This document shows positions 6,627 through 15,628 of a stretch of DNA of 36,295 nt, piece by piece (the first letter of the stretch is position 1; every line of letters starts with the position of its first letter). Source of the DNA: Crocinitomicaceae bacterium (GTDB taxonomy: Bacteria > Bacteroidota > Bacteroidia > Flavobacteriales_D > Crocinitomicaceae); contig JAKVAS010000020.1 of NCBI GenBank assembly GCA_022448165.1, forward strand, positions 1-36,295, written 5' to 3'. The notes beneath the pieces are model-generated. The model saw nothing but the letters and a program-made list of their open reading frames with translations. It did not search any database and had not been told where the DNA came from. Made by a program: the position numbers and the translations under genes.

Positions 6627-6657
6627 GAGTGAATGAGAGATATTAAATGTTCAAGTG

Positions 6658-7530
6658 ATGAGCGAAACATTAGAAGAAGACAACAAAGTTCGTATTAAAA
6701 AACCGAAATGGCTTAGAGTAAAACTTCCTACAGGAGAAAACTATAAGAAAGTTCGTTCTTTAGTCGATGAACATAAGCTTCATACGATTTGCGAAAGCGG
6801 GAACTGCCCTAACATGGGAGAATGCTGGGGGGAAGGCACTGCCACGTTCATGATCCTTGGAAACATCTGTACGCGCTCATGTGGTTTTTGCGCTGTTCAA
6901 ACTGGACGCCCTGACAAAGTAGATGAATTCGAACCAGGAAGAGTTGCCCATAGCGTAAAGACGATGGGGGTCAAACATGCAGTTATTACTTCTGTGGATC
7001 GTGATGATTTAAAAGATGGAGGAGGAGGCATCTGGGCACAAACAGTCCGTGCCATCAGGAAACAATCTCCAATCACCACTCTAGAGACTTTAATCCCTGA
7101 TTTTGGTGGTAAATGGGAAAATCTCCAAATGATTATTGACGTGGCACCTGAAATTGTTAGTCACAACCTTGAAACAGTCAGAAGACTTACAAAAGAAGTA
7201 CGTATTCAAGCAAAATACGATCGAAGTTTAGAAGTTCTTTTTCGACTCAAAAAAGGCGGGATGCGAACCAAATCTGGTGTTATGCTAGGACTTGGAGAAA
7301 CGAAAGAAGAAGTGCTAGAAACAATGGAAGACTTAAGAAGTGTTAATGTTGACATACTAACACTCGGACAATACCTTCAACCCACGACAAAGCATCTTCC
7401 AATTGCAGAGTTTGTAACACCTGAGGTTTTTGCTGAACTAAAGGACGCAGGAATGAAAATGGGATTCAGATACATTGAAAGTGGCCCCCTTGTTCGTTCA
7501 TCTTATCGTGCTGAAAAGCACCTATTTTAA
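6658..7530 (+). CDS. lipA: Lipoyl synthase (radical SAM)
   Basis: Inserts two sulfurs into octanoyl groups on the lipoyl domains of 2-oxoacid dehydrogenases and glycine cleavage H protein. Both iron-sulfur sites are complete: the auxiliary cluster cysteines at 45, 50 and 56 in [12 protein letters not shown], and the radical-SAM triad at 71, 75 and 78 in CTRSCGFC. The C-terminal RSSYRAEKH carries the serine that ligates the auxiliary cluster. At 290 residues the length is normal. A GTG at 6655 is also in frame, but the ATG at 6658 is the better start. It is divergent from the OsmC gene. The lipoamide-using enzyme gene lpdA lies about 6.7 kb downstream on the same strand, beyond two secreted-protein genes. 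Confidence 0.97.
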
Positions 7531-7672
7531 TAGACCTGTATATTCTAAATCCAATTTGAGCTACGACACCAAAGTAGTCCGTTTCGCTTGTAGTAATTTT
7601 ACATAGACATTAGTTCCATTAAAAGGTTCACACCCTATCGATTGGACAAAACGTGTAAAAAAACTATGAAAT

Positions 7673-10600
7673 ATGAAACATTCAATATGGATAATTAGTA
7701 GCGTTGGCATTGCTACCATTGCCTCTTTTTTAACTTTTCAACCATGGAATTTTAATGAATCCGTTTACAAGCAAGAAGTACTAAAGACTTTAGAAAGGCA
7801 AGAAATTGACGATGCTAAAAAATGGCTGTCGGCGCGATTTATTGATCAAGAAACAGGGCTTCCCCTTTCCAAAGAAAAATTACGCCTAATTGATGAATCA
7901 ATAAAAAACATGCCTCAAACAAAGTCAATTTCCTTTATTGAGCAGGGGCCCGACAATATTGGTGGACGTATTCGTGCAATACAGGTTGATCGAATTAATA
8001 ACGACATCGTATGGACAGGCGGTGTTTCAGGTGGACTATTTAAGTCTACAAATGGAGGGAATACATGGAATCATGTTACTTCCTACGAAGGAGTGGGAAG
8101 TCCATTTATTTCTTCAATTGCTCAATTTTCTAACGGAACATTGTTCGTTGCCACTGGTTCAGAAAATGAAAACTGGAACGGAGGTGGTGGAAACGGTGTT
8201 TGGTATAGCCAGGATCAAGGGACAACTTGGACACTAGTCCCCGAAACTGGGACTATTAATCTCATAAATAAAATTATAGCACCTGCCAATGGCACAACTC
8301 TATGGCTAGCAACATCTAATGGAATGAAAAAATGGAATTTTGGTAGCAGCTCCTTAGAAGTTGCCTCTAACGCCATCGGATCAACTACCTGTAGATCTAT
8401 AAGTTGCACAGAAGACGGTAGCCTACTCGTTGCAGCAATCGGAAGCAACAAAACTTATATTTCTAATGACGGAGGGGTTAGCTGGACAGATAAATCAATG
8501 GCGAATGGAGGCATTATACCTACAGGAGGCGATCGAATGGAATATGCAATTTCCCACGAATTAAACAACTCAGGACACTACTCAATATACGCTGTTCACA
8601 CCAGCTCAAACCTAAATGGGATGTATGTTTCCCATGATAGTGGAAATACATGGAGTCAATTCATGGGATCATCGGGGTCCCCTGGTAACTTAGATATATA
8701 CCGAGATCAAGGAGATTACAATTCAGTCGTTTCTGTTGTTCCTGGTAATTCAAAGAAAATCCTTATCGGTGGGATTGACATATGGAAATGGGAACAAAAT
8801 ACGAACTCTCCAATTTCTGGAGGCTTCGAAAAATTAACGGAATCTTATCTTTCACCTTCATCTAGCAAATACTCACATGCCGATAACCATGTAATGCAAT
8901 GGGATGGAGACAAACTATACGTTGGAAATGATGGCGGTATTAGTATTAACTTTGATCCTGAAGGAGATTGGTACCCAGCAAACCGCGGGTACAACATAAC
9001 CCAATATTATGGTGTTGCATTTGACGCGCACGGAGGCGTTATGGGTGGAGCTCAGGACAATGGGACCACCCACAATGACCATACAGGCTCTACATGGCAT
9101 GAATTTAAACAAGTATGGGGTGGTGATGGTTTCCAATGTGAAATTTCATTTTTCAATAGAGACATTCTTTTCGCAACTGTTCAGAACGGTGTAATTAAGC
9201 GCTCAAAAGACAGAGGAGTTACCGCGGAAGATTTTCATCCTGATTCCATTCCAGCTTCTTATGATGATTTCGGAACAGGTGGAGGTAACCATCCCTTCCA
9301 CACCACAATCTACATGGCAGAATATTACGACACCAATTCTGAAGATTCTATAATCTTCATTCCGCAACAAAATTATGCAGCAAACGATGAGATTGCAATC
9401 CCTAGTATGACGACCGGTGACAGTATCTATTATACCACACCAGTGCCACTATATTTCAGTGATACACTTAATTATACGGCTAATTTGTCTGTAACCGAAA
9501 ATTCTGTTGTTAATCAATTAAACGGCACGATTGTTCATCTTGACTTATACAACTGGGTTCATCATGGAACCTCTGGCTCAGGAAGTAACCCACCAGTCAT
9601 TGGTGATTCATTACTCGTTGATTTCCCTACAGGAACAGACACTGTCATTGTAGAATCATTAGATACATACACTCATTACTACGGACAACACCCTGTTACA
9701 TCAGACATATACGACATGGGATTAGATTCCGTTGTATATGATGTGTCATGGGATCAAATAACCGTTCAAGACCCATATCAATCTTGGTTTTTATTCTACA
9801 TAGACGCAAATGGTGGAGAACTTTGGGGGACACGAAATGCTCTTCGTTTATCAACACCAGATCCAAGATGGGGAATAATAGCTCAAGGAATTGGATCTGC
9901 CGGTGGATTTTCCAATCAGCCGAACCCAATTGATTTAGAATTTTCTAAAGACATGAATCATCTTTTCGTAAGCACAGGAGGGAGTCAAGTACATCGAATT
10001 GATGGATTAGGAAGTCTCTATTCTACAAATCCAACATTTGAAACAGATGCATTTTTCAAAGCTGGTAATCCACCGGCTGCTACCACCATGACATCTTTCT
10101 CTGGAGGAGGCGGAAGCATTGAAGGTTTAGGATTAAATCCAAATGATCCAGATGATCTAGTCATTTTTAAAGGTTCCGCAGGAATATCACGAACTTTAAG
10201 TAATGCCACATCTGGAAGTCCAACATTAACAACACTAGGCGCGGTAGGAACAACCTCTCCAAACATTTATGACGGAATCATTGACCGTGACGACCCAAAC
10301 ATTCTAGTTATAGGGACCTCTCATGGTGCTTTCGTTTCTGAGAACGGAGGACTAACATGGACTGTTGCTTCTACAGGATTTACTGGAACGCCAGTATTTG
10401 AGGTACGTCAGTCATGGAGAACGTGGAACGAAGGAAATTTCAAACCTGGAACCATATATATAGCAACTTATGGTAGAGGGATCTGGAGTTCTGACGCATA
10501 CGCTGAAACCCCAGAAAACGACCCGACTAGTGTCAATATTGATAACTTCAAAACACGTTTATCATCTTACCCAAACCCAGCAAATTTATCAACCAACATT

Positions 10601-10804
10601 CAATTTGAGCTCGCAGCTACATCTGATGTTACGATTAATGTATATAACCTATCAGGACATTTAGTTAAAAGTATCAAACAAAAAAACATGGCGAAAGGAA
10701 CAAACGAAGTTCCTCTTAACATCTCTGATTTATCAAGAGGCGTCTATGTTGTAAAGTTCAATGCTGGTGAACAAGTTGCCAGTACTAAACTTGTTAAGCA
10801 ATAA
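7673..10804 (+). CDS. T9SS-secreted BNR/VPS10-type beta-propeller protein, copy 1
   Basis: A 1043-residue secreted protein. It has an N-terminal signal segment (MKHSIWIISSVGIATIASF), then sialidase/sortilin-like propeller blades with Asp-box motifs such as STNGGNTW, SQDQGTTW, SNDGGVSW, SHDSGNTW and SENGGLTW. An inserted domain of about 185 residues (roughly 550-735) interrupts the blades. The C-terminal about 85 residues (from RLSSYPNPAN, near 957) form a type A T9SS sorting domain with NVYNLSGHLVKS and the terminal STKLVKQ. Such proteins are exported by Sec, then through the T9SS to the surface or medium. Propellers of this kind occur in glycosidases and adhesins; no catalytic residues can be assigned here. 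A diverged paralogue follows directly downstream. Confidence 0.9.
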   Translation: MKHSIWIISSVGIATIASFLTFQPWNFNESVYKQEVLKTLERQEIDDAKKWLSARFIDQETGLPLSKEKLRLIDESIKNMPQTKSISFIEQGPDNIGGRIRAIQVDRINNDIVWTGGVSGGLFKSTNGGNTWNHVTSYEGVGSPFISSIAQFSNGTLFVATGSENENWNGGGGNGVWYSQDQGTTWTLVPETGTINLINKIIAPANGTTLWLATSNGMKKWNFGSSSLEVASNAIGSTTCRSISCTEDGSLLVAAIGSNKTYISNDGGVSWTDKSMANGGIIPTGGDRMEYAISHELNNSGHYSIYAVHTSSNLNGMYVSHDSGNTWSQFMGSSGSPGNLDIYRDQGDYNSVVSVVPGNSKKILIGGIDIWKWEQNTNSPISGGFEKLTESYLSPSSSKYSHADNHVMQWDGDKLYVGNDGGISINFDPEGDWYPANRGYNITQYYGVAFDAHGGVMGGAQDNGTTHNDHTGSTWHEFKQVWGGDGFQCEISFFNRDILFATVQNGVIKRSKDRGVTAEDFHPDSIPASYDDFGTGGGNHPFHTTIYMAEYYDTNSEDSIIFIPQQNYAANDEIAIPSMTTGDSIYYTTPVPLYFSDTLNYTANLSVTENSVVNQLNGTIVHLDLYNWVHHGTSGSGSNPPVIGDSLLVDFPTGTDTVIVESLDTYTHYYGQHPVTSDIYDMGLDSVVYDVSWDQITVQDPYQSWFLFYIDANGGELWGTRNALRLSTPDPRWGIIAQGIGSAGGFSNQPNPIDLEFSKDMNHLFVSTGGSQVHRIDGLGSLYSTNPTFETDAFFKAGNPPAATTMTSFSGGGGSIEGLGLNPNDPDDLVIFKGSAGISRTLSNATSGSPTLTTLGAVGTTSPNIYDGIIDRDDPNILVIGTSHGAFVSENGGLTWTVASTGFTGTPVFEVRQSWRTWNEGNFKPGTIYIATYGRGIWSSDAYAETPENDPTSVNIDNFKTRLSSYPNPANLSTNIQFELAATSDVTINVYNLSGHLVKSIKQKNMAKGTNEVPLNISDLSRGVYVVKFNAGEQVASTKLVKQ

Positions 10805-10830
10805 AGTAAAAGATATATATACAAATAAAA

Positions 10831-10864
10831 TTAAGCCCATCTCTTTTTATAGAGATGGGCTTAA
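10831..10864 (+). terminator. Hairpin between the two propeller genes
   Basis: A perfect 14-bp inverted repeat (arms 10831-10844 and 10851-10864, loop TTTTAT) starts 26 bases after the copy 1 stop. The T-run after the stem is weak, so it may end transcription or protect the upstream mRNA 3' end. It suggests separate transcription of the two copies. Confidence 0.7.
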
Positions 10865-10994
10865 TATGTCTTGAGACTTTCAAAACTGTAAAGGGCATGA
10901 TTAAAACCAACTATATCAAATAGTAACTTTTCAATTATTATTTGTATTTTGGCGGTCGCGATAAACAGTTAAACTACTTGTATAATATCAAATT

Positions 10995-13900
10995 ATGAAA
11001 CGTAATAACATCATCTTTGGCAGTCTTGGCGTAATCGCCGCAGCTACCTTTTTTGCGTTTACACCTTGGAAATCAACAGATTCCGAAAGTGTTTATACTC
11101 AAGAGAATCTTAGTGCTTTAGAAAACAAAAGTGCCAATGACGCACGTATCTGGCTTGAAGCTAGGTATCTTGATCAATCAACAGGAGAACGAATTACTGA
11201 CGAAAAACTTCGTCAAATTGAAGAATCAATTAAACTTTTACCTAAAACAAAGGCATTAAGTTTTGTTGAGCAAGGTCCTGATAACATTGGTGGACGTACT
11301 CGTGCTATCCAAGTTGATCGTACCGATAACAATATTGTTTGGACTGGTGGAGTTTCTGGTGGTTTATACAAATCTGTTGACGGAGCTAATATATGGGAAC
11401 GAGTTACCTCTTACGAAGGTGTCGGAAGTCCTTTTATTTCTTCTATTGCTCAATTTTCTGATGGTACGCTATTTGTTGCAACTGGTTCAAATTTCGAAGG
11501 TTGGAATGGTAATGGAGTATGGTACTCGCAAGACCAAGGAGCTACTTGGACAATTGTTCCAGGAACAGCCTCTTTAGTTAAAGTTTCAGAACTTGCTGCA
11601 CCTGTTGGAGGAACAACTTTATGGCTAGGAACTTCTTCAGGTTTAAGAAAGTGGGAATTTGGTAACTCAACACTAGATATACCTTCTGCAGGCGCTGGAA
11701 ATTGTGGTTCTTTGAACTGCACCGATGATGGAACTGTATTTGTTGCTTCTATTGGAAGTAATCGTACTTATGTTTCTAACGACAGCGGAGTTACATGGGT
11801 TGACAAATCAACTGCTGGTGGTGGTACACTTCCATCAGGAAGTTCTCGAATGGAATATGCTATTTCGCATGAATTAAATAGTTCAGGATTCTATACTCTA
11901 TACGCAGTTCACACAGGAAGTAACTTAAATGGAATGTATGTATCTCAAGATAATGGAAATACATGGAGTCAATTTGTTGGAGCATCTGGTTCTCCAAGTA
12001 ACTTAGATATCTACCGTGGACAAGGAGGATATAACACTATTGTTTCTGTTGTACCTGGTAATACAAAAAAGATTGTTATTGGAGGTATTGACATTTGGAA
12101 ATGGGAGCAAAACACGAACAATCCGCCTGCCGGAGGATTTGAAAAGTTAACAGAATGGTTCTTATCTCCATCTTCGAACAAATATGTCCACGCAGACAAC
12201 CATGAAATGGAATGGGATGGTGACAAATTATATGTAGGTAATGATGGTGGTATTGGTATCACTTATGACCCTGAAGGAGATTGGTTCCCTGCAAACAGAG
12301 GTTACAACGTAACACAATACTACGGAATCGCTTTTGATGCCAACGGAGGTGTTATGGGAGGAGCTCAAGATAATGGTACAACACACAACGATCATACTGG
12401 ATCAACATATCATGAGTTTAAAGAGGTTTCTGGTGGAGACGGATTTGAATGTGAGATTTCTTTTTTCAATAGAGATATCTTATTCTCTACATCTCAATTT
12501 GGTTTCGTTATGAGATCAGGAGACAGAGGAGTAACAATGGATCAATTTTCTCCTTCGCTTCCAGCTGCATACGATCCTTTCGGTACAGATGGTTCACCGA
12601 ACCACCCGTTCCATACAACTATCCACTTGTCTGAGTACTACGATACAAACTCATTGGATTCTGTAGTATTTATTCCTCAACAAAACTACGCTGCAAATGA
12701 TGTTATATCTATTCCAAGTGCCACTACTGGGGATAGTATTCTTTATACAACACCTGTTGCATTATACTTTGATGATACATTAAACTATGCACCAGGATTA
12801 TCTACAACTGAAACGTCCGTTGTAAACTCTATCAATGGTGCAACAGTGCTTTTGGATCTATATACTTGGATTCATCACGGAACATCGGGTTCTGGAAACA
12901 CTCCGCCTGAAGTGGGAGATTCTTTATTAGTAGACTTCCCTACAGGAACGGACACAGTAGTTGTTGGTTCATTAGGAACATTTACACACTATTATGGTCA
13001 AAATGCCATTACTTCTGAAGTATATGACATGGGAATTGATTCTGTAGCTTATGATGTTGCTTGGGATAAATTAACCATTCAAGATCCTTACCAATCATGG
13101 TTCTTCATTTACGTAAATGCTAATGGAGGCGAACTTTGGGGAACACGTAATGCGCTTCGACTAGCTTCTGCTGATCAACAGTGGGGTGTTGTTGCTAGAG
13201 GAATTGGAGGATCATTTGGAGATCTTGATATAGAATTCTCTAAAGATTTGAACTCTTTATTTATCGCTACAGGAAGTTCACAGGTAAGAAGAATCGATGG
13301 TTTAGGAAGTCTTTACTCTACTACACCATCATTTGAAACAGATGCATTCTACTCTGTTACAGGAGCAGCCCCAGCGGCAACAACGGTTACAACCTTCTCT
13401 GGAGGCGGTGGAAACGTTGAAGGTATTGCTGTCAACCCAAGTAACCCAGATGACATTGTTACATTTAGAGGTTCTTCTGGAATGTCTAGAAGTAATAATA
13501 ATGCAACATCTGCATCTCCTACATTCACAAATGTTGGAGCTATTACAGGTGTTTCTCCATTCGTTTATGATGGAATCATCGATCGTGACGATCCTAATAT
13601 TATAGTTGTTGGTACATCAAATGGTGCTTTTGTAACAGAAGATGGAGGATCATCATGGAACGATGCTTCTACAGGATTTAGTGGAACACCTGTATATGAA
13701 GTACGTCAATCATGGAGAACTTGGGACGAAGGAAACTTCAAGCCAGGTACGATCTACATTGGTACATTTGGTCGAGGTCTTTGGAGCTCTGATTCTTACT
13801 TAGGCTTGACAGACTCAAATGATCCATCGGAAAACATTGAAAACTTTAATACACGGTTATCTTCATTCCCAAACCCAACGACAAGTACAACTACACTATC

Positions 13901-14102
13901 ATTTGAATTGGCGCAAGCTTCAGATGTAGATGTATATGTATACAATTTATCCGGTCGTTTGGTTAAAACGGTTAACAAGAAAAACCAAACAGCAGGATCT
14001 CAATTATTAGACTTAGATTCTAATGATCTTCCTCGTGGAACTTATATCGTTAAGTTCTCTGCTGGTAAACAACAAGCTTCAACAAAATTTGTTAAGCTGT
14101 AG
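10995..14102 (+). CDS. T9SS-secreted BNR/VPS10-type beta-propeller protein, copy 2
   Basis: A 1035-residue paralogue of the upstream gene with the same plan. The N-terminal signal segment is MKRNNIIFGSLGVIAAATFFAF. Asp-box blades include SQDQGATW, SNDSGVTW, SQDNGNTW and TEDGGSSW. An inserted domain spans about residues 545-730, and a type A T9SS sorting domain begins at RLSSFPNPTT near residue 950 and ends STKFVKL. Like copy 1 it should reach the surface or medium through the T9SS. Synonymous codons lean more to GCT, TCT, GTT, GGT and CGT than in copy 1, which by eye suggests stronger expression. A 190-base gap with a hairpin precedes it and a strong terminator follows, so it is probably its own transcription unit. 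Ligand or enzymatic activity is unknown. Confidence 0.9.
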   Translation: MKRNNIIFGSLGVIAAATFFAFTPWKSTDSESVYTQENLSALENKSANDARIWLEARYLDQSTGERITDEKLRQIEESIKLLPKTKALSFVEQGPDNIGGRTRAIQVDRTDNNIVWTGGVSGGLYKSVDGANIWERVTSYEGVGSPFISSIAQFSDGTLFVATGSNFEGWNGNGVWYSQDQGATWTIVPGTASLVKVSELAAPVGGTTLWLGTSSGLRKWEFGNSTLDIPSAGAGNCGSLNCTDDGTVFVASIGSNRTYVSNDSGVTWVDKSTAGGGTLPSGSSRMEYAISHELNSSGFYTLYAVHTGSNLNGMYVSQDNGNTWSQFVGASGSPSNLDIYRGQGGYNTIVSVVPGNTKKIVIGGIDIWKWEQNTNNPPAGGFEKLTEWFLSPSSNKYVHADNHEMEWDGDKLYVGNDGGIGITYDPEGDWFPANRGYNVTQYYGIAFDANGGVMGGAQDNGTTHNDHTGSTYHEFKEVSGGDGFECEISFFNRDILFSTSQFGFVMRSGDRGVTMDQFSPSLPAAYDPFGTDGSPNHPFHTTIHLSEYYDTNSLDSVVFIPQQNYAANDVISIPSATTGDSILYTTPVALYFDDTLNYAPGLSTTETSVVNSINGATVLLDLYTWIHHGTSGSGNTPPEVGDSLLVDFPTGTDTVVVGSLGTFTHYYGQNAITSEVYDMGIDSVAYDVAWDKLTIQDPYQSWFFIYVNANGGELWGTRNALRLASADQQWGVVARGIGGSFGDLDIEFSKDLNSLFIATGSSQVRRIDGLGSLYSTTPSFETDAFYSVTGAAPAATTVTTFSGGGGNVEGIAVNPSNPDDIVTFRGSSGMSRSNNNATSASPTFTNVGAITGVSPFVYDGIIDRDDPNIIVVGTSNGAFVTEDGGSSWNDASTGFSGTPVYEVRQSWRTWDEGNFKPGTIYIGTFGRGLWSSDSYLGLTDSNDPSENIENFNTRLSSFPNPTTSTTTLSFELAQASDVDVYVYNLSGRLVKTVNKKNQTAGSQLLDLDSNDLPRGTYIVKFSAGKQQASTKFVKL

Positions 14103-14123: not shown

Positions 14124-14158
14124 AAAAGCCCCGTTTTGGATTACAAAACGGGGCTTTT
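14124..14158 (+). terminator. Intrinsic terminator after propeller copy 2
   Basis: A 15-bp stem (arms 14124-14138 and 14144-14158) with a 5-base loop, a GC-rich centre (GCCCCG/CGGGGC) and a T-run at the end of the 3' arm. It lies 21 bases after the stop codon. The A-run on the left makes it potentially bidirectional. Confidence 0.88.
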
Positions 14159-14224: not shown

Positions 14225-15628
14225 ATGAGTAATTTCGATATAACAATTATTGGTTCAGGCCCTGGAGGATATGTAGCTGCAATTCGTTGCGCACAATTGG
14301 GTATGAAAACAGCCATTATTGAAAAATATGATACGTTAGGCGGAACATGTCTTAATGTTGGGTGCATTCCATCAAAAGCACTTCTTGATTCTTCGGAGCA
14401 TTTCCATAATGCCACGCATAACTTTGCAGAACACGGTATTGACGTTACAGATGTTAAAGCGAATATCGAGCAAATGATCAATCGTAAGAATGACGTTGTT
14501 GCACAAACTTGTAATGGTGTAAAATTCTTAATGGATAAAAACAATATTGAAGTATTTCACGGTACAGGATCTTTCGTGAATAATACAACGATTAAAATTA
14601 CCGATAAAGAAGGAAACGAATCAGAAATCACTTCAAAACACTCAATTATCGCTACAGGATCTAAACCGAACTATTTCCCTGGAATGGAACCTGATAAAAA
14701 ACGAATTATAACTTCCACAGAAGTTCTAAACATGAAGGAAATCCCTTCTAAAATGCTTGTAATTGGAGGTGGTGTTATTGGATTAGAACTAGGATCTGTT
14801 TTTGCACGACTCGGAACGAAAATAGAAGTTGTAGAATTCGAAAATACGATCATTCCAACCATGGACAAAACAATGTCTAAAGAGTTAACGAAAGTATTAA
14901 AGAAAGAAGGTTTTAAGTTCCATTTGAATCATCGTGTACAACATGTAAAGAATACTGGAGATGGAGTTCAGCTCACTGCTCTAAACAAGAAAGGTGAAGA
15001 AGTAACAATGGACGCTGATTACTGCTTAGTAGCTGTTGGTAGAAAACCTTTTACGGAAGGTCTAGGCTTAGAAAATGCGGGTGTAAAATTAAATAATCGA
15101 GGTCAAGTTGAAGTTAATGATAACCTTCAAACATCTTCTCCTAATATTTATGCTATAGGCGATGTAGTACGTGGTGCAATGTTAGCTCACAAAGCTGAAG
15201 AAGAAGGTGTATATGTTGCAGAAATGTTAGCTGGACAAAAACCTCATATCAATTACGACCTTATACCAGGTGTTGTTTACACTTGGCCAGAAGTCGCATC
15301 TGTTGGAAAAACAGAAGAGGAGCTGAAATCAGCTGGAAAAGAGCTAAAAATTGGTCAATTCCCTATTAAAGCACTTGGTCGTGCTCGTGCTAGCATGGAC
15401 ATTATGGGAACGATCAAAATAATTGCTGATAAGGAAACTGACGAAGTTTTAGGAGTTCATATGATCGCTCCAAGAGCCGCTGACCTAATCATGGAAGCTG
15501 TTGTGGCAATGGAATACAGAGCATCTGCTGAGGACATTGCTAGAATTTGTCATCCACACCCAACCTATTCCGAAGGTGTTAAAGAAGCTGCTTTAGCTGC
15601 AACTGAAAATAGACCCTTACACATCTAA
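14225..15628 (+). CDS. lpdA: Dihydrolipoyl dehydrogenase
   Basis: The FAD flavoprotein E3 that reoxidises dihydrolipoamide in pyruvate, 2-oxoglutarate and branched-chain dehydrogenases and in glycine cleavage. At 467 residues it is full length. An N-terminal FAD fold GSGPGGYVAAI leads to the redox disulfide Cys42/Cys47 in GGTCLNVGCIPSKALL. The NAD fold is VIGGGVIGLELGSVFARLG, followed by the second FAD motif IYAIGDVV. The C-terminal dimer interface has HPHPTYSE with catalytic His445 and Glu450. It stands alone between two terminators with its own probable promoter, not in an E1/E2 operon, so one E3 may serve several complexes. It is functionally linked to lipA upstream. Confidence 0.97.
   Translation: MSNFDITIIGSGPGGYVAAIRCAQLGMKTAIIEKYDTLGGTCLNVGCIPSKALLDSSEHFHNATHNFAEHGIDVTDVKANIEQMINRKNDVVAQTCNGVKFLMDKNNIEVFHGTGSFVNNTTIKITDKEGNESEITSKHSIIATGSKPNYFPGMEPDKKRIITSTEVLNMKEIPSKMLVIGGGVIGLELGSVFARLGTKIEVVEFENTIIPTMDKTMSKELTKVLKKEGFKFHLNHRVQHVKNTGDGVQLTALNKKGEEVTMDADYCLVAVGRKPFTEGLGLENAGVKLNNRGQVEVNDNLQTSSPNIYAIGDVVRGAMLAHKAEEEGVYVAEMLAGQKPHINYDLIPGVVYTWPEVASVGKTEEELKSAGKELKIGQFPIKALGRARASMDIMGTIKIIADKETDEVLGVHMIAPRAADLIMEAVVAMEYRASAEDIARICHPHPTYSEGVKEAALAATENRPLHI

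Follow-up and report, generated by a model that had tools for sequence, protein, structure and literature searches.

Between lipA (lipoyl synthase) and lpd (dihydrolipoyl dehydrogenase), a Crocinitomicaceae bacterium carries two tandem genes for propeller-like proteins with C-terminal tails of the type IX secretion system (T9SS). We refer to these genes as copy 1 and copy 2, and to the interval that they occupy as the slot. The region was analyzed within a stretch of 36,295 nucleotides, contig JAKVAS010000020.1 of assembly GCA_022448165.1, hereafter the window (G000:C113). The source assembly (G000) is a metagenome-assembled genome (MAG) of 3.39 Mb in 306 contigs, rated 86.5% complete. lipA, both copies, and lpd lie on the same strand (Table 1). 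The initial annotation described the copies as tandem paralogs with a common plan, and this is confirmed: both are intact open reading frames (ORFs), they share 68% amino acid identity, and both end in a T9SS tail. It also proposed that the two have long coexisted at different expression levels. Here, we examine their codon use, divergence, and upstream regions, and compare the slot among relatives.

Table 1. Features in and around the lipA-lpd slot, in window positions.
Feature	Position	Strand	Remarks
lipA (lipoyl synthase)	6655..7530	+	TIGR00510, 368.5 bits; upstream neighbor of the slot; adjoins the propeller-like gene in relatives
Distal upstream element TAGACCTGTATA, kept before copy 1	7531..7542	+	Also after lipA in family relatives
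-7-like box (P1) TAATTTTACA	7594..7603	+	Begins 63 nt from where the distal element starts; same spacing in relatives
Copy 1, T9SS-tailed propeller-like protein	7673..10804	+	1043 amino acids; average codon use; faster-evolving
15-pair terminator-like hairpin after copy 1	10830..10865	.	-25.7 kcal/mol; run of T on the - strand
Proximal block (P2) with TTTGTATTTTGGCGGTCGCGATAAAC, upstream of copy 2	10934..10967	+	None matching upstream of copy 1
Copy 2, T9SS-tailed propeller-like protein	10995..14102	+	1035 amino acids; highly biased codon use
15-pair terminator-like hairpin after copy 2	14124..14158	+	-24.3 kcal/mol; ends in T; absent from the pattern-scan listing
lpd (dihydrolipoyl dehydrogenase)	14225..15628	+	TIGR01350, 582.2 bits; downstream neighbor of the slot

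Codon use of the two copies

The two copies differ in their adaptation to the codons of the source genome. We calculated a codon adaptation index (CAI) from ten of the 14 ORFs in an S10-operon stretch (L076), chosen as ribosomal-protein genes and fusA. Of these, L2 was identified in the analysis, and the other genes are presumed from their sequences. The background comprised 201 ORFs of at least 150 amino acids, taken by mechanical selection from the window and 26 further stretches. Copy 1 has a CAI of 0.595 (bootstrap 0.563-0.631), at the 34.8th percentile of this background, and copy 2 a CAI of 0.751 (0.719-0.779), at the 98th percentile and above all 39 background ORFs of at least 600 amino acids. 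Codon adaptation is thus far from equal, as the initial annotation implied. At positions where the copies share a residue but not a codon (n = 352), the reference-favored codon is found in copy 2 at 221 and in copy 1 at 131 (p 2e-6). The contrast is consistent across all thirds of the genes. CAI values are 0.617 and 0.768 for copies 1 and 2 when fusA is left out of the reference, and 0.583 and 0.724 on the weights of a relative (G028).

The individual codons first listed as distinguishing the copies are only partly those that do so. GCT, TCT, GGT, and CGT are raised in copy 2 and CTC in copy 1, as listed; GTT (37/62 versus 45/73) and GCC (9/52 versus 8/63) are about equal, and ATC is commoner in copy 2 (17/54) than in copy 1 (13/77). 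TCC, CCC, and GGG are also raised in copy 1.

Codon use in copy 1 unlike that of copy 2 might be expected if copy 1 were a horizontally acquired homolog retaining the codon use of its donor genome. Yet its codon use is average for the source genome (53rd percentile of the reference-versus-background score; G+C at third codon positions 0.30 versus 0.293 in the background), it is sister to copy 2 with full support, and both copies occupy the native slot. We regard such an origin as extremely improbable.

Age of the duplication and protein change

The duplication is old, yet lies inside the source lineage. Among fourfold sites at shared residues, 154 of 268 differ between the copies, which is in the range seen between species (161/302 for G028 and G012). 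Synonymous divergence, which the initial annotation proposed as a test of age, is therefore near saturation; maximum-likelihood dS ran to its bound, and the copies are not recent. They are sisters in the trees (support 100/99 and 100/100). The trees reject a duplication before the divergence from the other genus members, since placing copy 2 with these and apart from copy 1 gave an approximately unbiased test p-value of 0.0002. Recent gene conversion was likewise not supported, with DNA identity per 50 codons of 53-77% and a longest identical run of 21 bases.

Copy 1 has changed faster at the protein level. Its branch length is 0.38, compared with 0.14 for copy 2. Of 486 alignment columns without variation in six relatives, 53 are altered only in copy 1, 12 only in copy 2, and 45 in both (p 3e-7). 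Branch length was at its bound in GY94 three-taxon fits with each of three outgroups, so we relied on fourfold counts and amino acid rates. The 53 changes unique to copy 1 could be the trace of neofunctionalization, with a new binding or enzymatic role and a codon change that is a by-product of a different expression need. They are, however, spread over the protein and densest in the first 100 columns (15/53), and we consider this explanation improbable.

Single-copy relatives provide the comparison for codon bias. Counting the source genome, the gene was found in nine of 34 genomes of the genus at a threshold of E 1e-30. Whether relatives carry one copy or two was another check proposed at the outset: in the six with whole loci, which form our sample (G028, G012, G016, G006, G007, and G022), one full copy lies between lipA and lpd. 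Measured on each genome's own weights (references of 8 to 10 genes each), these single copies rank between the 91st and 100th percentiles of the respective backgrounds (29-36 ORFs, from which ORFs of nearly the gene's own length were excluded; z 1.1 to 2.9). The weakest bias is that of G012 (z 1.4) and G006 (z 1.1). The simplest reading is that high codon bias is ancestral and was lost by copy 1.

Upstream regions

In relatives, the upstream region of the gene consists of a distal module, in which TAGACnTGTATA has TAnnTTT 62-64 nt downstream, and a proximal block (GTAATTTGGCGGTCGCG). We treat both as putative promoters. The proximal block, a slightly variable GTAATTTGGCGGTCGCGATAAAC, is located 49-51 nt before the ATG in the six single-copy loci and in the downstream copy of G032, and a form of it also precedes the partial gene of G005. 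With a 34-column matrix built from these eight genus relatives, the region upstream of copy 2 scores 46.7 bits. There, the block reads GTATTTTGGCGGTCGCGATAAAC and lies 51 nt before the ATG. The region upstream of copy 1 scores -22.9 bits, like shuffled sequences (mean -22.8). The exact TTTGGCGGTCGCGA occurs once in the source genome. The block was rejected as the mark of a regulon: with up to two mismatches it has five places in the source genome, the exact one included, versus nine for a reversed control.

Copy 1 has the distal module instead. In the six single-copy relatives and G032, TAGACnTGTATA directly follows lipA, with a TAnnTTT box at a distance of 62-64 nt; copy 1 has the element and the box at a spacing of 63 nt. 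Within the window, the element is found upstream of copy 1 only, even allowing one mismatch. Since 0.60 matches at up to one mismatch are expected there by chance, this single site is informative only through its conserved place. TAnnTTTG together with TTTG is the -7/-33 motif published for Bacteroides fragilis (PMC2483708).

The distal element recurs after lipA within and beyond the genus. In nine genus loci chosen for the exact element, TAnnTTT stands at 62-63 nt in nine of ten sites, the tenth being that of a gene remnant in G028. Of 30 lipA-centered genus loci, 17 contain the exact element; for G020, G025, and G011, it lies farther on, within longer stretches. Among 41 family- and order-level loci in which lipA adjoins the gene, 21 have it at up to one mismatch (shuffles 0.000), comprising 17 of the 21 same-family loci L100-L120 and four of 18 among L014-L033. 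TAnnTTT follows at 62-64 nt in 15 of these 21.

The hairpins that the initial annotation reported after each copy are both present. Between lipA and copy 1, we found no evident terminator (fold z -0.24; one weak 5-pair stem), and copy 1 might also be reached by read-through from lipA. A sigma-70 promoter scan returned 21 sites versus 28.8 in shuffles.

The distal element elsewhere in the genomes

The exact distal element has 54 matches in 11 genomes, whereas its reversed pattern has 20; no match occurs in G023. Outside the slot, 36 of 42 distinct sites fall outside ORFs of at least 120 amino acids, versus eight of 20 reversed sites, and those eight all lie at the start of one orthologous gene. 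A general regulon was rejected, as only nine of the 42 non-slot sites have TAnnTTTG at 62-63 nt (0/20 for reversed sites). All nine precede one apparent orthologous gene, judged by its N terminus, in nine genomes. Thus, the 62-64 nt spacing is supported by two gene families.

This apparent ortholog is preceded by TAGACnTGTATA, about 190 nt upstream, in ten loci (L169, L170, L172, L213, L216, L219, L221, L224, L227, and L231). TAnnTTTG is present at 62-63 nt in nine of them; the tenth, L216, is the source genome's own copy, which has the element without the box. Both of the proteins scanned (L169 and L216) have CarboxypepD_reg and TonB-receptor Plug domains. Another site, TAGACATGTATA, lies just upstream of a leucine-rich repeat protein with a T9SS tail in the source genome (L173:238-1491, G000:C1). 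Pairs of TAGACGTGTATA sites, opposite in orientation and separated by 6 nt, stand at one end of G028:C57 (L204:5-34) and of G028:C74 (the end of L205).

Other duplicates and decay

A separate duplicate in G032 appears to repeat the pattern of copy 1, with a long branch, a low CAI, and an altered proximal block. The G032 copy upstream of lipA (L040:1478-4604) has a frame broken near residue 900, possibly by an assembly error, and a branch of 0.35. Its CAI of 0.55 is like that of its neighbors (0.48-0.59), versus 0.724 for the single copy of G022 (both on G022 weights). Its proximal block is altered, as judged by eye. Of the G032 copy after lipA, only the start is present, at a contig end. In G028, an 85-residue tail remnant lies upstream of lipA, with a TAGACATGTATA of its own before it. 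The same-family genome G203 has two partial matches, each at the end of a contig (G203:C115:172-2541 and G203:C39:175-2550), that suggest another duplicate pair.

The broken frame of G032 and the remnant of G028 look like later stages of a path on which copy 1 itself could be travelling: its promoter block would have gone first, codon bias and constraint would then have relaxed, and it would have no selected role. That copy 1 is faster and less biased fits this course. Against it, copy 1 retains an intact frame of 1043 amino acids and its T9SS tail despite near-saturating synonymous divergence, and the fitted omega on its branch is low (0.037-0.065, with unreliable dS). Ongoing loss is therefore rather unlikely, although we take it more seriously than the other alternatives to an expressed variant.

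Gene content of the lipA-lpd slot

The gene is widely linked to lipA. Six relatives share the order lipA-gene-lpd. lipA adjoins the gene in 18 of the 20 loci L014-L033 (L016 was later found with lipA) and in 23 of the 24 loci L100-L123, counts that refer to best-scoring loci rather than a random sample. In L033, a homolog with 39% identity over its best segment also follows lipA. The gene family is present in 157 of 199 genomes of the order at E 1e-40.

Within the genus, the slot can hold a different gene. We examined 30 of 34 genus lipA loci; seven have a propeller-like gene adjoining lipA, and the other 23 have the start of a different protein with a hydrophobic N terminus. Six of these other proteins, from four genomes, were scanned, and all have Peptidase_M43, PKD, and a T9SS tail. 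In the eight M43-slot genomes with longer stretches, one gene precedes lpd in four and two in four. These are L154-L161 (G030, G027, G023, G020, G025, G014, G011, and G019), where the slot holds one or two genes of the M43 kind, six of the twelve having been domain-scanned. Several have an upstream block that is similar by eye to the proximal block. Elsewhere, the source genome also has two adjacent M43-type genes (G000:C13:33585-37912), which share 34-37% identity with the M43 protein in the slot of G030.

In all four tandem M43 pairs, the second gene has the higher CAI on G000 weights (first/second 0.657/0.685, 0.674/0.787, 0.629/0.755, and 0.737/0.777). The exact distal element stands only before the second M43 gene in G020, G025, and G011, and only before the first in G027, where the first copy apparently has both modules, by eye. 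In the propeller-like pair of G046, a one-mismatch element precedes both copies. The element therefore precedes one copy only in five of the six tandem pairs examined, although these pairs are not six independent events: one supported clade unites the second copies of G020, G025, and G011, and another the first copies of G020 and G025. Thus, the element often accompanies only one tandem copy, but the modules are not divided in complementary fashion in every pair, and the division is no guide to which copy has the higher CAI.

Protein features and neighboring genes

Both copies are probably secreted by the T9SS. As in other type A cargo, a C-terminal sorting domain scores over cut-off in each (PF18962, 55.6 and 47.3 bits for copies 1 and 2; TIGR04183, 52.6 and 56.4 bits, cut-off 23), and the N terminus has a hydrophobic stretch, as judged by eye. 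These proteins differ from named T9SS cargo in that no named Pfam or NCBIfam family matches the cargo part over cut-off. PF15902 (sortilin/Vps10) scores 29.9 and 30.8 bits, under the gathering score of 33; NF045728 (F510_1955 glycosylhydrolase) scores 55.1 and 44.8 bits against a curated cut-off of 175; and a BNR/Asp-box Pfam match is below cut-off.

Weak matches nevertheless suggest that the cargo part resembles an Asp-box propeller, and "propeller" is used here in this sequence-level sense. Asp-box-like patterns occur five times in copy 1 and six times in copy 2, where the match at residue 46 is probably spurious. A profile comparison matched the solved structure 1sqj (oligoxyloglucan reducing-end cellobiohydrolase) at E 8e-7, with a best stretch of 87 positions. 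These motifs and this match suggest a likeness to the Asp-box beta-propellers, which include proteins of the GH74 type as well as Vps10/sortilin (PMC2716378); the copies differ in that their Vps10 match is below the Pfam cut-off. AlphaFold2 models of the two proteins have a mean predicted local distance difference test score of 29.

After lpd, the gene at 15796-18030 matches a Dpp7 dipeptidyl-peptidase at 565 bits, below the cut-off of 1200, and its homologs lie near lpd in six relatives. Rfam has no match in the window at the gathering threshold.

Discussion

We propose that copies 1 and 2 are old duplicates that have divided their upstream sequence, with copy 2 in an abundant role and copy 1 as a lower or conditionally expressed variant. 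In the slot between lipA and lpd stands a T9SS-tailed cargo gene, codon-biased in most genus relatives tested, and the propeller-like gene was tandemly duplicated there long ago in the source lineage. Copy 2 most likely has the abundant ancestral role because it has kept the proximal promoter-like block and the codon bias. Copy 1 has kept only the distal module (TAGACnTGTATA and a -7-like box 63 nt on) and lost selection for preferred codons while its protein changed faster, and for these reasons it is most likely the lower or conditional variant. We infer from the DNA both the expression levels of the copies and that copy 1 still works, and we put the probability of this reading at about two in three.

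Long coexistence at different expression levels, as first suggested, is supported by the unequal CAI, by the near-saturated synonymous divergence, and by a proximal block that is absent before copy 1 and present before copy 2 and eight genus relatives. The codon asymmetry goes together with faster protein change in copy 1, which would also fit decay of that copy.

Several observations weigh against the division of roles that we propose. The CAI reference has only ten genes from an incomplete MAG, in which no L16 and no EF-Tu domain 3 match was found. On G000 weights rather than their own, the partial G005 gene (0.556), G012 (0.648), and G035 (0.655) are not strongly biased. The fits do not settle dN/dS, as dS was at its bound, and equal omega for the two copies was rejected with one of three outgroups. 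A TAnnTTTT also lies 71 nt before the ATG of copy 2, without the distal element. The comparison within G032 is hampered by its downstream copy, which has only 68 codons and a CAI of 0.504, compared with 0.523 for the same stretch in G022 and 0.408 in the upstream copy. In G046, the CAI order is reversed (first 0.681, second 0.557; borrowed G000 weights). Finally, the distal module precedes the second, higher-CAI copy in three tandem M43 pairs and so is no mark of low expression.

Duplicates drifting apart in expression are a kind already known from yeast. Among small-scale duplicates of Saccharomyces cerevisiae, the derived copy is faster and has lower CAI and lower mRNA levels, according to Bu et al. 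2011 (PMC3190396). As there, the faster copy here (53 versus 12 changes; 0.38 versus 0.14) has the lower CAI. With respect to upstream loss, a conserved proximal block, regulatory by inference, is absent before the faster copy 1. The case differs from the yeast study in concerning a bacterial tandem pair known from sequence alone, in that the missing upstream block is seen directly and another module is kept by the same copy, and in that either copy may be the "derived" one.

A broader reading is possible, although we hold it only tentatively. The lipA-lpd slot may be a long-lived expression site whose cargo, propeller-like or M43, can be exchanged and duplicated while the upstream region persists. 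TAGACnTGTATA and a TAnnTTT(A/G) box 62-64 nt on would then provide the binding site and promoter for a regulator, so far undescribed, that is common to the slot and the TonB-receptor-like gene, and tandem copies would partition the modules in a bacterial form of promoter-partition subfunctionalization. Our confidence in this is reduced by the tandem pairs in which the modules are not neatly divided or the element does not go with the copy of higher or lower CAI in a regular way.

A literature search, with most subscription journals outside its coverage, returned no paper joining type IX secretion with lipoyl synthase and none joining type IX secretion, the VPS10 domain, and Flavobacteri; the distal element, in five written forms, returned one paper, unrelated by title. 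What appears to be new within that coverage is the retention of different upstream modules by two copies, the wide link to lipA, and an exchangeable, duplicable T9SS slot. In this bacterial tandem pair, codon bias, rate of protein change, and upstream sequence agree in direction; the single-copy relatives serve as a comparison, and other duplicates show loss at more advanced stages. The locus also reveals how widely lipoyl synthase is linked to an exported T9SS cargo gene, and the fixed-spacing upstream element might help to identify a regulator of cell-surface genes within the order.

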